Shown here piece after piece: positions 55,794 through 64,000 of a DNA stretch of 64,000 nucleotides. The stretch's first letter is position 1. Each line of letters begins with the position of its first letter. Origin of the DNA: Albidovulum denitrificans (GTDB lineage Bacteria; Pseudomonadota; Alphaproteobacteria; Rhodobacterales; Rhodobacteraceae); the NCBI RefSeq assembly GCF_002973535.1, contig NZ_PVEP01000012.1, positions 41,072-105,071 of the forward strand, read 5' to 3'. The notes beneath the pieces are model-generated. The model made no database searches and was not told the DNA's origin. It was given only the letters and a program-made list of their open reading frames with translations. The position numbers and the translations under genes were made by a program.

Positions 55794-55823
55794 TTGACAG
55801 CGATCCGCGACAAGGGCAGCTTT
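55794..55823 (+). promoter_or_regulatory. Possible promoter of cas3
   Basis: A perfect -35 box TTGACA at 55794-55799 is followed after 18 bp by AGCTTT, a poor -10. It lies about 55 bp upstream of the cas3 ATG, in the 155 bp gap after the D-aminopeptidase gene. The -35 is the same hexamer as that of the mini-ORF promoter at 58121. Confidence 0.4.
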
Positions 55824-55854
55824 GGCTATCAAAGCTTGCCCTCCACGTTCAGAC

Positions 55855-58101
55855 ATGACTCATTTCTTTGCGCATTCCGGCGATCCTGCCGACCTTGGCA
55901 CCTGGCAGACTCTGCCCGACCATCTTGACCAGACCGCGGGCCTTGCCGCGGCCGCCGCCCAAACGGCAGGGCTTTCGCGTTGCGCGGAACTTGCCGCGCG
56001 GTTTCACGATTTCGGCAAATACGACCCCGCGTTCCAGCGGCGCCTGCACGGCGACCCCACGCCGGTCGACCACTCGACCGCCGGGGCCAGCCTGCTTCTT
56101 GATCGCGCGCCAGCCGGTCCGCAACGGCTTGTGGCCGAGGTTCTGGCCGATGCGATACTCGGCCACCACGCGGGCCTGCCCGACACCAACGGTTCCGATG
56201 CCGCCCGCGCCCGGCGCATCGGCCGCTTTCGCCAAAGCGATCCTGTCCCCGCCGATATAACCGCCGCAACCCAGATCGACCTTGCGCCAGCGGTTGCCGA
56301 GATCATCGGCAAGATACGGCCGGGCGATGGCTTTGACCTCTCGGTCGCCGGGCGCATGGTGTTTTCCTGCCTCGTCGATGCCGATTTCCGCGATACCGAG
56401 GCCTTTTACGCCAGCCTCGAAGGGCGCGACATTCCCGCACGCGACTGGGCAGGGCTGCAAGACCTGCTGCCCGCGCTTACCGGCGCATTCGACACGCGCA
56501 TGGCGGGCTTCGGGGCCAGCGACCTGAACCGGCTGCGCAGCGAAGTGCTGCGCCACATCCGCGCCCAGGCCGCGCTGGCACCCGGCCTCTTCACGCTGAC
56601 GGTCCCCACCGGCGGCGGCAAGACGCTGGCGTCGCTTGGCTTCGCGCTCGACCATGCGGCGCGGCACGGGCATCGGCGTATCATCTACGCGATCCCCTAC
56701 ACCTCGATCATCGATCAGACGGCGGCGACCTTCAAAGACCTCTTCGCGGGTCTGGGCGATGTCGTGCTGGAACATCATTCCGCGATCGAGGCCGAACAGC
56801 CCGGCGCCGAGGGGCGCGACAAGGCCCGCCTGGCGATGGAGGACTGGGCGGCCCCGGTCGTGGTGACAACGAATGTGCAACTGTTCGAAAGCCTGTTTGC
56901 CGCGCGGCCGGGGCGGGCGCGCAAATTGCACAACATCGCAGGCTCGGTGATCGTGCTTGACGAGGCGCAGTGCCTGCCGCGCAAATTGCTGCTGCCAGCG
57001 CTGCGGATGATCGAGGTGCTGGCCCACCACTACCATTGCACCGTCGTGCTATGCACCGCCACCCAGCCTGCCTTCGACAGCGCGCAGCTCAGGCAGGGCG
57101 GGCTGCCACTGGCGGGGCGCGAACTGGCCCCGAACCCCGAGACGCTGGCGCAAGATCTGCGCCGCGCACGGATCGTCCAGGGCGGGCCGATGACGGATAG
57201 CGATCTGGTCGCGGCCCTCGGCGCCAGCCATCAGGCCATGGTGATCGTGAACAGCCGCAGGCACGCGCTGTCCCTGTTCGAGGCGGCGCGGAGCGAAGGG
57301 ATCGACGGGCTGATCCATCTGACCACCCGCCAGTACCCCACGCACCGCCGCCGTATCCTCGCCGACATACGCGACAGGCTGAAGGACGGCGCGCCCTGTC
57401 GGCTGATCGCCACCAGCCTGATCGAAGCCGGCGTGGACCTGGACTTTCCGCGCGGCTGGCGTGCGGAGGCCGGGCTTGACAGCATCGTGCAGGCGGCGGG
57501 CCGCGTGAACCGCGAAGGCCGACGGGCGATCGAAGACAGCACCCTGACGGTCTTCGAGGCGGTCGACGACCCTGTCGGCGGAGAGATCGCGCAGCTGGCG
57601 AAGGCGATGCGCGCGGTTGCCCGTACCCGCAACGATCTCCTGGCGCCCGAGGCGATCCGGGACTGGTTCGATGAGGTCTATTGGCGCGTCGGGCCGGAAC
57701 GGCTCGGCCAGCCGATGGTCGATGCCTTCGGCCTGTCGCGAAGCGGCACCGATCTGCCCTATCGCACGACAGCGGAACAATTTCGGATGGTTGAGGATCG
57801 GATGGTTCCGGTCATCGTCGCACTGGAGGGCGCGGCACGTGCCGAGGTCGCGCGGCTGGACGTCGCGGAAATCTCCTCCGGCAAGCTTGCCCGTGCGTTG
57901 CAACCCTTTACCGTACAAATACCCGCAAAGGACCGCGACACGCTGATCCGAAACGGCCATGCGGACTACCGCCGTGCCGATCTGCGCGGCGACCAGTTCT
58001 GTGTGCTGCAAACCCCCTCGCTCTACCGCGCCGAAAGCGGGCTGTGGTGGGAGGGGGCGGATTATCTGGGCGACGACGCGCTACAGACATTCATGTCGTA
58101 A
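55855..58101 (+). CDS. cas3: Cas3, type I-C helicase-nuclease
   Basis: The 748-residue protein starts with an HD nuclease domain (FAHSG, RFHDFGKYDPAF, GHHAGLPD) and continues with an SF2 helicase: Walker A PTGGGKTLASLGFALDHA, the DEAQ box VLDEAQCLPR, motif III CTATQPAF and motif VI IVQAAGRVNREG. It is recruited by the type I-C Cascade to unwind and cut target DNA. I used ATG 55855; a TTG at 55822 would add 11 residues and neither has a clear ribosome site. A 342 bp gap with an unusual RNA module follows before cas5c. Confidence 0.95.
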   Translation: MTHFFAHSGDPADLGTWQTLPDHLDQTAGLAAAAAQTAGLSRCAELAARFHDFGKYDPAFQRRLHGDPTPVDHSTAGASLLLDRAPAGPQRLVAEVLADAILGHHAGLPDTNGSDAARARRIGRFRQSDPVPADITAATQIDLAPAVAEIIGKIRPGDGFDLSVAGRMVFSCLVDADFRDTEAFYASLEGRDIPARDWAGLQDLLPALTGAFDTRMAGFGASDLNRLRSEVLRHIRAQAALAPGLFTLTVPTGGGKTLASLGFALDHAARHGHRRIIYAIPYTSIIDQTAATFKDLFAGLGDVVLEHHSAIEAEQPGAEGRDKARLAMEDWAAPVVVTTNVQLFESLFAARPGRARKLHNIAGSVIVLDEAQCLPRKLLLPALRMIEVLAHHYHCTVVLCTATQPAFDSAQLRQGGLPLAGRELAPNPETLAQDLRRARIVQGGPMTDSDLVAALGASHQAMVIVNSRRHALSLFEAARSEGIDGLIHLTTRQYPTHRRRILADIRDRLKDGAPCRLIATSLIEAGVDLDFPRGWRAEAGLDSIVQAAGRVNREGRRAIEDSTLTVFEAVDDPVGGEIAQLAKAMRAVARTRNDLLAPEAIRDWFDEVYWRVGPERLGQPMVDAFGLSRSGTDLPYRTTAEQFRMVEDRMVPVIVALEGAARAEVARLDVAEISSGKLARALQPFTVQIPAKDRDTLIRNGHADYRRADLRGDQFCVLQTPSLYRAESGLWWEGADYLGDDALQTFMS

Positions 58102-58119
58102 ACAAACAAATCCTAGGAA
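58099..58119 (-). promoter_or_regulatory. TTC-flanked protospacer-like target of the pseudo-crRNA
   Basis: Read on the minus strand, TTC (58119-58117) is followed by CTAGGATTTGTTTGTTTA (58116-58099). TTC is the usual type I-C PAM, and the following bases match the pseudo-spacer at 58324 at positions 1-5, 7-11, 13-16 and 18. The PAM edge is 1 bp from the -35 box of the mini-ORF promoter, so a bound Cascade would block RNA polymerase. The site overlaps the last codons and stop of cas3. Confidence 0.8.
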
Positions 58120-58120
58120 C

Positions 58121-58149
58121 TTGACAAAAGACCTCCCGCTTCCTACCTT
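58121..58149 (+). promoter_or_regulatory. Sigma70-like promoter of the mini-ORF (and possibly of the cas5c operon)
   Basis: TTGACA (58121-58126), 17 bp, then TACCTT (58144-58149). The -35 is perfect; the -10 keeps TA and final T. The expected start near 58156 gives a 5' leader of about 20 nt before the mini-ORF ATG. No strong promoter was found nearer to cas5c; a weak one is TTGCGC-16-TAGCCT at 58396-58423. Confidence 0.7.
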
Positions 58150-58174
58150 CTGGCGAGGCGTCCTGGAGGTAAAC

Positions 58175-58270
58175 ATGAGAGTCTTCCCCCCCAAGCCATC
58201 GCGTATGCTTGAAATCGGGCTTGAATGCCTCGCGCTCGCCCTGCGCCTTGTCCTGAAACTCCTGCCGTAA
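58175..58270 (+). CDS. 31-codon mini-ORF between cas3 and cas5c, candidate CreT-like toxin
   Basis: A strong ribosome site GGAGGT lies 4 nt before the ATG. The predicted 31-residue peptide begins MRVFPPKPSR and ends in a leucine-rich, basic stretch (LALALRLVLKLLP) that would be hydrophobic or amphipathic. The second codon is AGA, which looks uncommon in this GC-rich window (not counted). In the archaeal CreT toxin a strong ribosome site and early rare AGA codons trap a scarce tRNA; here either that or the peptide itself could be harmful. It is followed at once by a degenerate CRISPR repeat. No relative is recognised. Confidence 0.65.
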   Translation: MRVFPPKPSRMLEIGLECLALALRLVLKLLP

Positions 58271-58295
58271 GAAGCGGCAAGCAGGCGAGCGAAAG

Positions 58296-58373
58296 GTCAT
58301 CCAATACGGATGCGGGTAGAAACCTAGGTTTTGTGTGTTGAACCAGTAGGCCCTCACCATTCGTGGTGAGGGC
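58296..58373 (+). ncRNA. CRISPR-resembling guide RNA (CreA/CreR-like): pseudo-repeat, pseudo-spacer and 3' hairpin
   Basis: The pseudo-repeat (58296-58323, 28 nt) starts GTC, forms stem CATCC/GGATG and ends in CGGGTAGAAAC. The real repeat (63966-63996) starts GTC, forms stem CGCCCCC/GGGGGCG and ends in CGGATCGAAAC. The two 11-nt handles agree at 9 positions and sit at the same place below the stem, so Cas5c could process it. The pseudo-spacer begins at 58324 with CTAGGTTTTGTGTGTTGA and matches the TTC-flanked site at 58116-58099. A 10 bp hairpin (58350-58359 with 58364-58373, loop TTCG) may set the 3' end. There is no second repeat. Its own promoter was not identified. Confidence 0.8.
58350..58373 (+). 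other. Perfect 10 bp hairpin with TTCG loop at the end of the guide RNA
   Basis: GCCCTCACCA and TGGTGAGGGC are perfectly complementary around the tetraloop TTCG. The downstream GCAACCTGCGG has no T-run, so it may be an RNA-stabilising 3' end rather than a terminator. It lies 26 nt after the pseudo-repeat, in place of the second repeat of a normal CRISPR unit. Confidence 0.75.
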
Positions 58374-58443
58374 GCAACCTGCGGCAATATTTCGCTTGCG
58401 CAACTCGCACGTCGGGATAGCCTCACCGCATTGGGAGAAAGTC

Positions 58444-59142
58444 ATGGCTTACGGTATTCGTCTGCACGTCTGGGGCAATTATGCCCTGTTCACACGCCCC
58501 GAACTCAAGGTCGAGCGGCAAAGCTACGACGTCATGACACCCTCGGCGGCGCGGGGCATCCTTGAGGCGATCCACTGGAAGCCGCAGATCAGGTGGGTGA
58601 TCGACCGGATCCATGTGCTGACCCCGATCCGTTTCCAGCAGATTCGCCGCAATGAGGTGGGCCACAAGGCGCCGGCGGGCAAGATCAGGCAGGCGATGAA
58701 CCGGGGCGATCTGGAAGGCTTGCAACTGCTGGTGGACGAGGATCGCCAGCAACGCGCCGCAACCGTTCTGGTCCAGCCCGCCTATGTGATCGAGGCGCAT
58801 TTCGTGCTGACGTCCCGTGCCGATGCCTCGGACAGCGAAGGCAAGCATCTGGACATCTTCAACCGCCGCGCCGCGCGCGGGCAGTGCTTTCACCAACCCT
58901 GTCTGGGAACGCGCGAGTTTGCCGCGCATTTCGCGCTGATCGAACCGGGCGCCCCCTTGCCTGCGCGCGCGCCCGAGGCCGAGACGGCAGAGCTGGGCTT
59001 TGGCACGCCGCGCGACCTTGGCTTCATGCTTTGGGACATCGACCATGCCGCACCGGGGCGGCCGTCCCTGCTGTTTCGCGCCGGTCTGCGCGACGGCGTG
59101 CTGGAGGTGCCTGCGCCCGGCAGCCCGGAGGTAAGGCGATGA
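58444..59142 (+). CDS. cas5c: Cas5c (Cas5d), type I-C crRNA-processing endonuclease
   Basis: The 232-residue RAMP protein has the Cas5c start YGIRLHVWGNYALFTRPELK, the SYDVMTPSAARGILEAIHWK block containing the catalytic tyrosine region, and GKHLDIFNRRAARGQCFHQP with the Lys-His pair used by this family for RNA cleavage. In type I-C it replaces Cas6, cutting repeat RNA at the base of the hairpin to leave an 11-nt handle. ATG 58444 is preceded by GGGAGAAA. Its stop overlaps cas8c. Confidence 0.95.
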   Translation: MAYGIRLHVWGNYALFTRPELKVERQSYDVMTPSAARGILEAIHWKPQIRWVIDRIHVLTPIRFQQIRRNEVGHKAPAGKIRQAMNRGDLEGLQLLVDEDRQQRAATVLVQPAYVIEAHFVLTSRADASDSEGKHLDIFNRRAARGQCFHQPCLGTREFAAHFALIEPGAPLPARAPEAETAELGFGTPRDLGFMLWDIDHAAPGRPSLLFRAGLRDGVLEVPAPGSPEVRR

Positions 59143-60872
59143 GCATGCTGGCCGCGCTGGCGCAGGCCTATGACCGTCTGCCCGACGCCCCGCCCTTCGG
59201 GTATTCGGCCGAAAAGATCGGGTTTTGCGTGGTCCTGAACGCGGATGGGTCGGTCGCCGACGTGGTGGACCTGCGCGACACGGACAAGAAGCGCAGCGCG
59301 AAGATCGTCATGGTGCCGCAAGCGAAGAAGCGCACCGTCGGCATCGACCCGAACGTTCTGTGGGACAAGACCGCCTATGTTCTGGGCGTGACGGGCGGGA
59401 CGGGCAAACGTACCGCCGAGGAACACGCAAGGTTCCGGGACCAGCATCTTGAATGGCTGGCCGGTTCCGATGACGAGGGCCTCACCGCGCTTGCAAGGTT
59501 CCTGGAAAGCTGGACGCCGGATCGGTTCGTCGCGCCGCTCTGGCCCGAAGAGATGCGCGACCAGAACGTCGTGTTCCGGCTGGTCTCCGGGTTCGAATTC
59601 CTGCACGAGAGACCCGCCGCAAAGGCACTTTGGGCGCGCATCGCGGCCGAGGGCGCGTCCGAACCGCAAATCTGTCTGCTGACCGGCGCGTCAGGACCTG
59701 TGGCGCGGCTGCATCCCTCGATCAAGGGCGTCTGGGGCGCACAGAGTTCGGGCGCGAGCCTGGTCTCGTTCAACCTCGATGCCTTCACGTCCTACAACCA
59801 CGAACAGGGCGACAACGCGCCGGTCTCTGAGGCGGCGGCCTTTGCCTATACCACCGCGCTCAACCGCTTTCTGTCGGACCCGAAACACCGGCTTCAGATC
59901 GGCGATGCCTCGACCGTGTTCTGGGCCGATTGCGCGGATATGGACACCGCCGCCGAGGCCGAGGACATCTTCGCCGCGATGTTCGGACGCGATACGACCA
60001 ACGACGATGGGGTCAACACGGCAAAGGTCAGGGAACAGCTCGTCCAGATCCGCGAGGGGCGACGGCTTGCAGAGATCATGCCAAAGCTTGACGAGGGCGT
60101 GCGCTTCTTCGTCCTGGGCCTTGCCCCCAACGCCGCACGGCTTTCGGTGCGCTTCTGGTGGGAAGGCAGCTTTGGCACGCTGGCCGCCAACTACCAGCGC
60201 TTCATCGACGACACCGCCCTTGACCCGGCCCCGCGCACTGGATGGCCGCCGCTCTGGCGCTACCTGATCGAGCTGGCCGTGCAGGGCAAGCGCGAGAATG
60301 TGCCACCGCTGATCGCGGGCGAATGGATGCGCGCGATCCTTTCTGGCACGCGCTACCCGCTTACGCTGCTGTCGGCCACGCTGATGCGCATCCGCGCCGA
60401 TGGCGAGGTGAACGCCCTGCGCGCCGCAATCCTGAAATCCGTCCTGATCCGCAACCTATCCTGGGAGGTTCCCGTGGCGCTCGATTCCGCCAACACGAAC
60501 CGGGGCTATGTCCTCGGCAGGCTCTTCGCCGTCTATGAAGAGGTCCAGCGCGCAGCCCTCGGCGGCAGCGTCAACGCGACCATCAAGGACAAGTTCTACG
60601 GCGCCGCCTCGGCCAGCCCGCAAAAGGTGTTCCGCACCCTGGATTCCGGCGCACAGAACCACTTCTCCAAGCTGCGCAAGCTCAGCCCCGGCCGCGCGGT
60701 GAACCTCGAAAAGCTGATCGGCTCCATCACCGAACTGATGGATCCGGGCGCCGACCCGATCCCCGCCACGCTGAGTTCGGCCGAACAGGCGCTGTTCGGC
60801 ATCGGCTATTACCACCAGCGAAGCGACTTCTTCCGCAAACACGATGACAAAAGCCCCGAGGTAACCGAATGA
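59139..60872 (+). CDS. cas8c: Cas8c (Csd1), type I-C Cascade large subunit
   Basis: A 577-residue Csd1-family protein with the typical N-terminus (MLAALAQAYDRLPDAPPFGY), ICLLTGASGPVARLHPSIKG, GASLVSFNLDAFTSYNHEQG and the C-terminal helical part (IGYYHQRSDFFRK). It recognises the PAM, and an internally translated C-terminal Cas11c is often made in type I-C. ATG 59139 overlaps the cas5c stop (ATGA). The ATGA overlap with cas7c follows. Confidence 0.94.
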   Translation: MSMLAALAQAYDRLPDAPPFGYSAEKIGFCVVLNADGSVADVVDLRDTDKKRSAKIVMVPQAKKRTVGIDPNVLWDKTAYVLGVTGGTGKRTAEEHARFRDQHLEWLAGSDDEGLTALARFLESWTPDRFVAPLWPEEMRDQNVVFRLVSGFEFLHERPAAKALWARIAAEGASEPQICLLTGASGPVARLHPSIKGVWGAQSSGASLVSFNLDAFTSYNHEQGDNAPVSEAAAFAYTTALNRFLSDPKHRLQIGDASTVFWADCADMDTAAEAEDIFAAMFGRDTTNDDGVNTAKVREQLVQIREGRRLAEIMPKLDEGVRFFVLGLAPNAARLSVRFWWEGSFGTLAANYQRFIDDTALDPAPRTGWPPLWRYLIELAVQGKRENVPPLIAGEWMRAILSGTRYPLTLLSATLMRIRADGEVNALRAAILKSVLIRNLSWEVPVALDSANTNRGYVLGRLFAVYEEVQRAALGGSVNATIKDKFYGAASASPQKVFRTLDSGAQNHFSKLRKLSPGRAVNLEKLIGSITELMDPGADPIPATLSSAEQALFGIGYYHQRSDFFRKHDDKSPEVTE

Positions 60873-61822
60873 CCACGCTTTCCCGCCGCCATGATTTCGT
60901 GCTGATCTTCGATGTCGCAAATGGAAATCCGAACGGGGACCCCGACGCGGGTAACCTGCCCCGGCTTGATCCCGAAACCAGCCACGGGCTGGTCACCGAT
61001 GTCAGCCTCAAGCGCAAGATCCGCAATTATGTGGAGCTTGCCCATGCGGGTGAGGACGGGCTGCACATCTATGTCGAAGAAGGCGCGATCCTCAACGAAA
61101 AGCACCGCAAGGCCTATGTCGCGCTGCGCGGGGACGAAAAGTCGAAGAAAGACGCCAAGCTCAATCCCAAGGATGACGCCGAAGCGACCGCGCTGCGCGA
61201 TTTCATGTGCGCCAACTTCTTCGACGTGCGCACCTTCGGCGCCGTGATGTCGACCGGCATCAACTGCGGCCAGGTCAAGGGGCCGGTGCAGATGACATTC
61301 GCCAGTTCCATCGAGCCGATCCTGCCGGTGGAGATTTCGATCACCCGTATGGCCGCGACCAACGAGGCCGAACAGAAGAAGCGGGCCGAAGGCGCCGAAG
61401 AGGGGGACGCGCGCACCGACAATCGCACCATGGGCCGCAAGCATATCGTACCCTATGGGCTTTACGTCGCGCACGGGTTCATCTCGGCCAAGTTTGCCGA
61501 ACGCACGGGGTTCTCCGAGGCGGACCTCGATCTGCTGTTTCAGGCGCTGACCAACATGTTCGAACATGACCGTTCCGCCGCGCGGGGCGAAATGACGACA
61601 CGCAAGCTGATCGTCTTCCGCCACGAAAACGCACTTGGCAATGCGCCCGCCCATGCCCTGTTCGATCGCGTGAAGGTCGGACGCAACGTCGATGGCGCGT
61701 TCCGGGCGCCCGATGACAAGGGGCTGGGCAACCTCGCCCCGGCGCGCAAGTTCGCGGACTATATCGTCGAGATCGACCGCGACGGCCTGCCCGACGGGGT
61801 CGAGATCCTGGAGCTTGTGTAA
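60869..61822 (+). CDS. cas7c: Cas7c (Csd2), type I-C Cascade backbone subunit
   Basis: A 317-residue RAMP protein with FVLIFDVANGNPNGDPDAGN and the VSLKRKIRNYVEL helix, MSTGINCGQVKGPVQMTFAS, and GRKHIVPYGLYVAHGFISAK. Several copies line the crRNA and flip out every sixth base. That property matters for the mismatch pattern of the guide at 58324. Confidence 0.95.
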   Translation: MTTLSRRHDFVLIFDVANGNPNGDPDAGNLPRLDPETSHGLVTDVSLKRKIRNYVELAHAGEDGLHIYVEEGAILNEKHRKAYVALRGDEKSKKDAKLNPKDDAEATALRDFMCANFFDVRTFGAVMSTGINCGQVKGPVQMTFASSIEPILPVEISITRMAATNEAEQKKRAEGAEEGDARTDNRTMGRKHIVPYGLYVAHGFISAKFAERTGFSEADLDLLFQALTNMFEHDRSAARGEMTTRKLIVFRHENALGNAPAHALFDRVKVGRNVDGAFRAPDDKGLGNLAPARKFADYIVEIDRDGLPDGVEILELV

Positions 61823-63965: not shown

Positions 63966-64000
63966 GTCGCCCCCACCCGGGGGCGCGGATCGAAACATCC
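63966..64000 (+). CRISPR. Start of a type I-C CRISPR array (first repeat, cut by the window end)
   Basis: A 31-nt repeat occupies 63966-63996. It begins GTCG, forms stem CGCCCCC/GGGGGCG around ACCC and ends in CGGATCGAAAC, the form usual for type I-C repeats. Four bases of the first spacer follow before the window ends. Only one repeat is visible, so the array call rests on repeat form plus the adjacent cas2 and leader. Confidence 0.85.

Follow-up and report, generated by a model that had tools for sequence, protein, structure and literature searches.

CreTA modules with RNA toxins have been described in type I-B (PMC8501985) and type I-F (PMC10097628) CRISPR-Cas systems, and the CreT of the type I-E system of Citrobacter rodentium is a 96-bp open reading frame (ORF) that must be translated for toxicity (PMC12055562). 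In CrePA, a protein toxin, typically with a KilA-N domain, is under the control of CreA and Cascade (PMC12737573). CreR is known from types I-B, I-E and V-A (PMC13131331, PMC12737573), and the RNA anti-CRISPR Racr is a lone repeat that a virus or other mobile element carries away from any cas genes (PMC10651486). Further sources on these systems are PMC9458426, PMC12948488, PMC10810201 and PMC10758571. In this study, we analyzed a 64,000-nucleotide stretch of the genome of Albidovulum denitrificans (contig NZ_PVEP01000012.1; hereafter the window), focusing on the gap between cas3 and cas5c of its type I-C locus. The gap is likely to hold a CreTA-like addiction module in which Cascade, guided by the small RNA CreA, is predicted to repress a conserved 31-aa ORF, the likely toxin. 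Modules of this kind are known from types I-B, I-F and I-E. A type I-C version with a translated peptide would appear to be new; none of the matches listed in our literature search described a type I-C CreTA or CreR, but the original papers in Science (2021), Cell Host Microbe (2023) and Nat Chem Biol were not covered and priority is unsettled.

The C. rodentium CreT/CreA pair (PMC12055562) resembles the module in its position between cas3 and the first effector gene, in an ORF behind a strong predicted promoter and ribosome-binding site, and in a partial guide match, flanked by a protospacer-adjacent motif (PAM), beside that promoter. It differs in belonging to type I-E rather than I-C and in the placement of creA, which precedes the ORF and is encoded on the other strand there but follows it on the same strand here. 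The I-B CreTA of Haloarcula hispanica and H. hubeiense (promoter PcreTA in the latter) shares the degenerate repeat, the pseudo-spacer and the limited match to the creT promoter; it differs in an RNA toxin that sequesters a rare tRNA, in processing by Cas6 and in an archaeal host (PMC8501985). The I-F CreTA of Acinetobacter also occupies an effector gap (cas3-csy1), with a PAM-flanked target and a mini-ORF with a Shine-Dalgarno sequence. However, its 33-bp ORF is reported to act as RNA, and it has two repeats, diverges from creA and is processed by Csy4 (PMC10097628). CrePA has in common a protein toxin under CreA and Cascade, typically with KilA-N there (PMC12737573) versus peptides of 26-31 aa without a Pfam match here; the 31-aa window peptide matched nothing in Pfam (E up to 1) or NCBIfam (E up to 0.001), and the 26-aa peptide of related loci had no Pfam match. 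CreR likewise employs a mini-CRISPR guide with a limited promoter match in a cas locus but targets a cas promoter and carries no toxin gene (PMC13131331, PMC12737573); the target here lies at the predicted promoter of the ORF. Unlike Racr, the module sits between cas3 and cas5c and has a matched guide.

Guide, target and ORF in the window

The gap is 342 nt long and, read along the plus strand, shows the order target, predicted promoter, 31-aa ORF after GGAGG, degenerate repeat, pseudo-spacer, 10-bp hairpin and cas5c promoter-like element. The features, with the basis of each assignment, are as follows.

58099..58116, minus strand (read from 58116 to 58099): CreA target (protospacer), which overlaps the stop codon of cas3 and agrees with the guide at 14 of 15 scored positions
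58117..58119, minus strand: PAM TTC (sequence and comparison of modules)
58121..58149, plus strand: predicted creT promoter, TTGACA (58121-58126), 17 nt, TACCTT (58144-58149) (comparison with other modules)
58165..58169, plus strand: GGAGG ribosome-binding site (sequence)
58175..58270, plus strand: creT, 31-aa ORF MRVFPPKPSRMLEIGLECLALALRLVLKLLP, likely toxin (protein-level conservation)
58292..58323, plus strand: degenerate repeat (PsiR) with stem 58298-58302/58308-58312 and 11-nt handle 58313-58323
58324..58349, plus strand: pseudo-spacer (PsiS) of CreA, of which about 16-18 nt pair with the target
58350..58373, plus strand: 10-bp hairpin, likely the 3' end or 3' handle of CreA (folding)
58396..58423, plus strand: cas5c promoter-like element, TTGCGC, 16 nt, TAGCCT (motif comparison among Rhodobacterales loci)
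55822..58101, plus strand: cas3 (NCBIfam)
58444-59142, plus strand: cas5c (NCBIfam)
59139-60872, plus strand: cas8c (NCBIfam)
60869-61822, plus strand: cas7c (NCBIfam)

The original prediction, made from the DNA letters, had placed a CreTA-like or CreR-like guide in this gap. Its positions for repeat, handle, pseudo-spacer and target proved exact to the base, and the TTC PAM (58119-58117) and the minus-strand target (58116-58099) are both present. The degenerate repeat, away from the array but inside the cas locus, keeps a 5-bp stem (CATCC/GGATG) and the handle CGGGTAGAAAC. The latter is identical to the array handle CGGATCGAAAC at 9 of 11 positions, as had been claimed, when both array ends are inspected. 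The guide matches its PAM-flanked target at positions 1-5, 7-11, 13-16 and 18, next to the predicted creT promoter. A search of the own genome for TTCCTAGGNTTTGTNTG, allowing up to 2 mismatches, gave the target site as the only perfect match; one other site and the guide itself each differed at 2 positions. The conserved ORF downstream of the target had been overlooked by the prediction; it is present in a single copy in this genome.

The hairpin behind the pseudo-spacer is strong, but its resemblance to a repeat is not clear. Across the modules described below, the segment 3' of PsiS has a folding energy of -15 kcal/mol or better in 29 of 33, as expected of the 3' hairpin of a CRISPR RNA (crRNA). 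Folding is weak in exactly L032, L042, L059 and L070 (related loci are given by such numbers), and the other modules have the following hairpin. In the same four loci, inverted-repeat arms seen by eye flank the repeat and pseudo-spacer, so that CreA would sit in the loop of a long stem. No Rfam family matched within 58000-58500 (E up to 1).

Conservation of the module among related loci

We scanned 80 loci with a related cas5c, kept of 196 confirmed, together with the window (81 loci in all). The region covered 560 bp before cas5c and 20 bp of cas5c itself; guides were sought behind GAAAC and sites behind TTC, and 15 positions (1-5, 7-11 and 13-17) were scored. A score of 12 or more was reached by 19 of the 81 loci and by none of 4050 control regions resampled with a first-order Markov model, which bears out the claim that the match is above chance. 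Six further loci bring the first set to 25 of 81: four scored 11 and have a proper repeat (L018, L024, L042, L046), L030 pairs with a gap of one base at position 6 (as judged by eye), and L076 has the handle GAAAT. Eight more modules were found among about 25 additional non-duplicate loci (L087, L094, L095, L101, L107, L109, L112, L114). L109 and L087 score only 11, a level that 17 of the 4050 controls also hit, and are the weakest of the 32 rows compared below. The scores of L079 (11), L053 (10) and L115 (10) were judged to be chance and excluded. L091 (the own locus), L092 (equal to L008) and L105 (equal to L027) were dropped as duplicates; L103 (equal to L004) and L106 (equal to L050) have no module. 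By a crude ORF rule, the cas3-cas5c gap measures 257-483 nt in 22 of 24 fetched module loci. Among plasmid cas5c loci (8 fetched of 50 listed), the pair occurred only in L087, on Tistrella pTM3, at 11 of 15; a tblastn search of plasmids with two of the peptides gave no match at E up to 1, a threshold that queries of this length would rarely attain.

Guide and target change together. In the 32 of 33 modules compared (L030 was omitted because of its gap), the ten-base seeds are all different, and the guide fits its own target best in 31. The exception is L042; this locus, whose ORF is interrupted, is also the one whose guide fits the target of another module better. The mean match is 13.0 of 15 for own pairs and 4.5 for swapped pairs, and swapped pairs reach 11 or more in 11 of 992 cases, several of which involve closely related loci. 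One of the tests named beforehand for the prediction was whether the pairing of repeat and target persists in relatives, and it does. A crRNA-like guide aimed at a promoter region within a type I-C cas locus is thus supported by the comparison of relatives. Seen in the window alone, the single degenerate repeat, the weak -10 box and the 5-bp stem could suggest a chance resemblance, or a decaying array remnant of one repeat with an accidental self-match. Since no control reached the score of 19 loci and guide and target covary in 31 of 32 modules, this explanation is refuted for the family, and we regard it as extremely improbable.

From position 1 to 18, the numbers of matches among the 32 modules are 31, 31, 30, 32, 31, 7, 27, 28, 27, 31, 31, 8, 28, 30, 24, 21, 13 and 9. 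Positions 6 and 12 are flipped out in type I complexes. The mismatches that had been pointed out there are real, but they are not selected: these positions, matched only 7 and 8 times, are unconstrained and at chance level. Because the original score skipped them, the pairs were rescored with all 18 positions, and the same pair was picked in 31 of 32 modules. When the PAM was not fixed, TTC stood at the best site in 32 of 32, a result that is partly circular since TTC had been used to assemble the set. All 32 handles conform to [CT]GG[AG]T[ACT]GAAA[CT]; a similar pattern had served to collect 24 of them. In 21 of 32 modules, a stem of 5 bp or longer directly abuts the handle, compared with 499 of 6400 random places, and the modules show 25 different stems. 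In L077 (Pannonibacter carbonis), the match is ungapped at positions 1-16, 6 and 12 included, which makes this locus a natural test of the pairing that is tolerated without self-attack. In L101, part of the target stretch occurs as a tandem duplicate some 350-400 nt ahead of cas5c, with a TTC PAM at one copy only (by eye).

The ORF is conserved as a protein. The window peptide belongs to a family of five (the window, L008, L013, L023, L101) with 13 of 31 columns invariant. Similar hydrophobic peptides are encoded in L077, L059 and L070, and other short helix-like ones in L107, L112 and L114. Modules in the opposite orientation carry an ORF in 14 of 16 cases, most of an unrelated 26-aa family with the consensus MRRRxYALRLxxGxFxIELELDLEPP (11 aligned). 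The ratio of nonsynonymous to synonymous differences (pN/pS) is 0.34 in the window family (5 sequences, with all 10 pairs below 1) and 0.32 in the 26-aa family (all 36 pairs below 1), versus 0.84-2.45 in other frames. The 26-aa value comes from the 9 of 14 sequences of exactly 26 aa; L022, L055, L075, L076 and L078 were excluded as 27 aa or longer, or divergent. Both main ORF families therefore evolve under protein-level selection. A single-sequence structure prediction places a helix at residues 10-29 of the window peptide (mean predicted local distance difference test score 82). The peptide is predicted to form a short hydrophobic helix with positive charge, and our guess from the sequence is that its simplest site of action would be the membrane. 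In 394 genomes of the family, clear matches to the peptide models (one for the 26-aa model, two for the window model) occur only beside cas5c. Weak partial matches of the window model in 13 other genomes (E 0.006-0.05) were taken for chance; three of the six inspected are one and the same 55-aa frame.

It is conceivable that the ORF only sequesters ribosomes or a rare tRNA, in the manner of the modules known from types I-B and I-F. Every CreT described for those types acts as RNA (PMC8501985, PMC10097628), and the window ORF has AGA as its second codon and a good ribosome-binding site. However, the amino acids are kept over the full length while the codons vary, and early codons differ within the family; toxicity would then hardly be set by codons or RNA. 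In Acinetobacter, some synonymous changes are reported to abolish toxicity (PMC10097628), unlike the codon freedom seen here. We consider an RNA toxin very unlikely.

Predicted promoters and the gene proposed to be repressed

The other alternative is autoregulation of the CreR kind, in which Cascade and the guide would repress a promoter feeding cas5c-cas8c-cas7c, the small ORF being a leader peptide or a bystander. The targeted promoter of the window does read towards cas5c, and read-through into cas5c may occur. In addition, 7 of 15 inverted modules have their target no more than 53 nt from the start codon of cas5c, and both L094 and L087 (Tistrella mobilis pTM3) combine a promoter-like site, a repeat and a guide but show no ORF. 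Judged by these elements, L087 and L094 are possibly type I-C CreR. Against this, the first set comprises 9 modules oriented like the window and 16 of 25 inverted as a whole cassette. Because the inverted ones transcribe towards cas3 and away from cas5c, pure cas autoregulation is unlikely. The ORFs are conserved as proteins, and the targeted promoter of the window leads into one of them. Finally, cas5c has its own promoter-like element (58396-58423), whose motif recurs 47-51 nt ahead of cas5c in 10 of 29 Rhodobacterales loci, including 4 that lack a module, and in 37 of 5800 shuffles. We therefore consider autoregulation alone improbable; of the two possibilities left open by the original prediction, CreTA-like is better supported than CreR-like.

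Several observations weigh against the CreTA-like reading. A TTGACA is present at 58121, where a promoter had been predicted, but a strict sigma-70 scan of 58000-58480 finds no promoter, so the call of the creT promoter rests on comparison with other modules. The distance from PAM to promoter is as in the window in 6 of 17 forward modules (the window, L008, L013, L023, L077, L095); the PAM lies within the -35 box in L032 and L070, and the scorer chose another place in the remaining 9. In the inverted modules, the best promoter-like element lies 12-37 nt past the PAM start in 10 of 16, but the geometry is elsewhere or unclear in 6. The ORF is broken in L032 and L042 and missing in L006 and L046 (4 of 25 modules), and none was found in L087, L094 and L109; the toxin is thus not always present. 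A clear second repeat behind the pseudo-spacer, a frequent though not constant feature of CreTA, was not found in the window, the hairpin occupying its place. The addiction signature expected in the Cascade genes was not significant: all three are intact in 20 of 20 loci with a toxin ORF and in 4 of 4 module loci without one, and one is short or missing in 7 of 63 loci without a module. Among these 7, L034 and L074 lie at contig ends, L090 is distant, and L007 is two residues below the threshold.

On balance, a CreTA-like module remains the likely explanation, and the following mechanism is proposed from the arrangement of its parts. Transcription from the 58121 promoter would yield the peptide and probably also CreA. 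Cas5c, which is the cutting enzyme of type I-C systems, would cut the degenerate repeat and leave the 11-nt handle. Cascade, for which CreA would need cas5c, cas8c and cas7c (58444..61822), would then occupy 58099-58119, immediately next to the -35 box at 58121, and obstruct the promoter. Pairing over about 16 nt, fading after position 16, would permit binding but is likely too short for attack by Cas3. If mutation, an anti-CRISPR or titration disabled Cascade, the peptide would be produced and growth would stop. The host could thus not afford to lose its CRISPR effector.

The cas3-cas5c gap as a possible exchangeable slot

The window operon, assigned with NCBIfam, consists of cas3, cas5c, cas8c and cas7c, then cas4, cas1 and cas2, then the CRISPR array, whose first repeat ends at 63997. 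The array is interrupted by the contig end: window positions 63966-64000 hold the first repeat at the end of contig C12, and the last unit, with a truncated terminal repeat, lies at the start of contig C6 (L001, 1-100).

On a cas5c tree of 85 rows (L101, L112, L107, L109 and L114 omitted), a quick search gave at least 31 changes of slot content, 22 of module presence and 6 of orientation, which fits an exchangeable slot. A different insert, an ORF of roughly 100 aa in which the stretch K(V/I)TWPNGKIYVGSDLTDS was recognized by eye, occupies the gap in L011, L017, L026, L029, L035, L043, L058, L061, L065, L069, L072, L073 and L083. Some of its copies are partly broken; none of these loci showed a GAAAC guide paired with a matching site, and the L011 copy has no Pfam match up to E=1. 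L012 (CP059262.1) is titled Exiguobacterium profundum, but its cas5c is 87% identical to that of the window and groups with Rhodobacteraceae; it is probably a misnamed metagenome-assembled genome.

In seven inverted modules (L037, L046, L052, L055, L057, L076, L082), the target stands 3-53 nt before the cas5c start, between the toxin unit and the cas operon. One site might control both the toxin and cas5c in these loci. As a tentative generalization, which may well prove too broad, the cas3-cas5c gap of alphaproteobacterial type I-C loci could be an exchangeable addiction slot. It would combine one switch design with unrelated translated peptide toxins (31-aa helical, 26-aa of the MKRRRY...LELDLEPP type and further helix-like ones) and flip as a unit, and part of the inverted forms would shut toxin and cas5c through one CreA site between divergent units, merging CreTA and CreR.

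If the CreTA-like reading is true, CRISPR addiction modules would extend to type I-C, here in a locus in which cas6 is not among the seven cas genes, and the guarded toxin could be a translated peptide from several unrelated families. The roughly thirty natural guide-target pairs indicate what Cascade seems to need for binding without self-destruction, namely about 16 positions with 6 and 12 free. Whether type I-C anti-CRISPR proteins would trigger such toxins also becomes directly testable.

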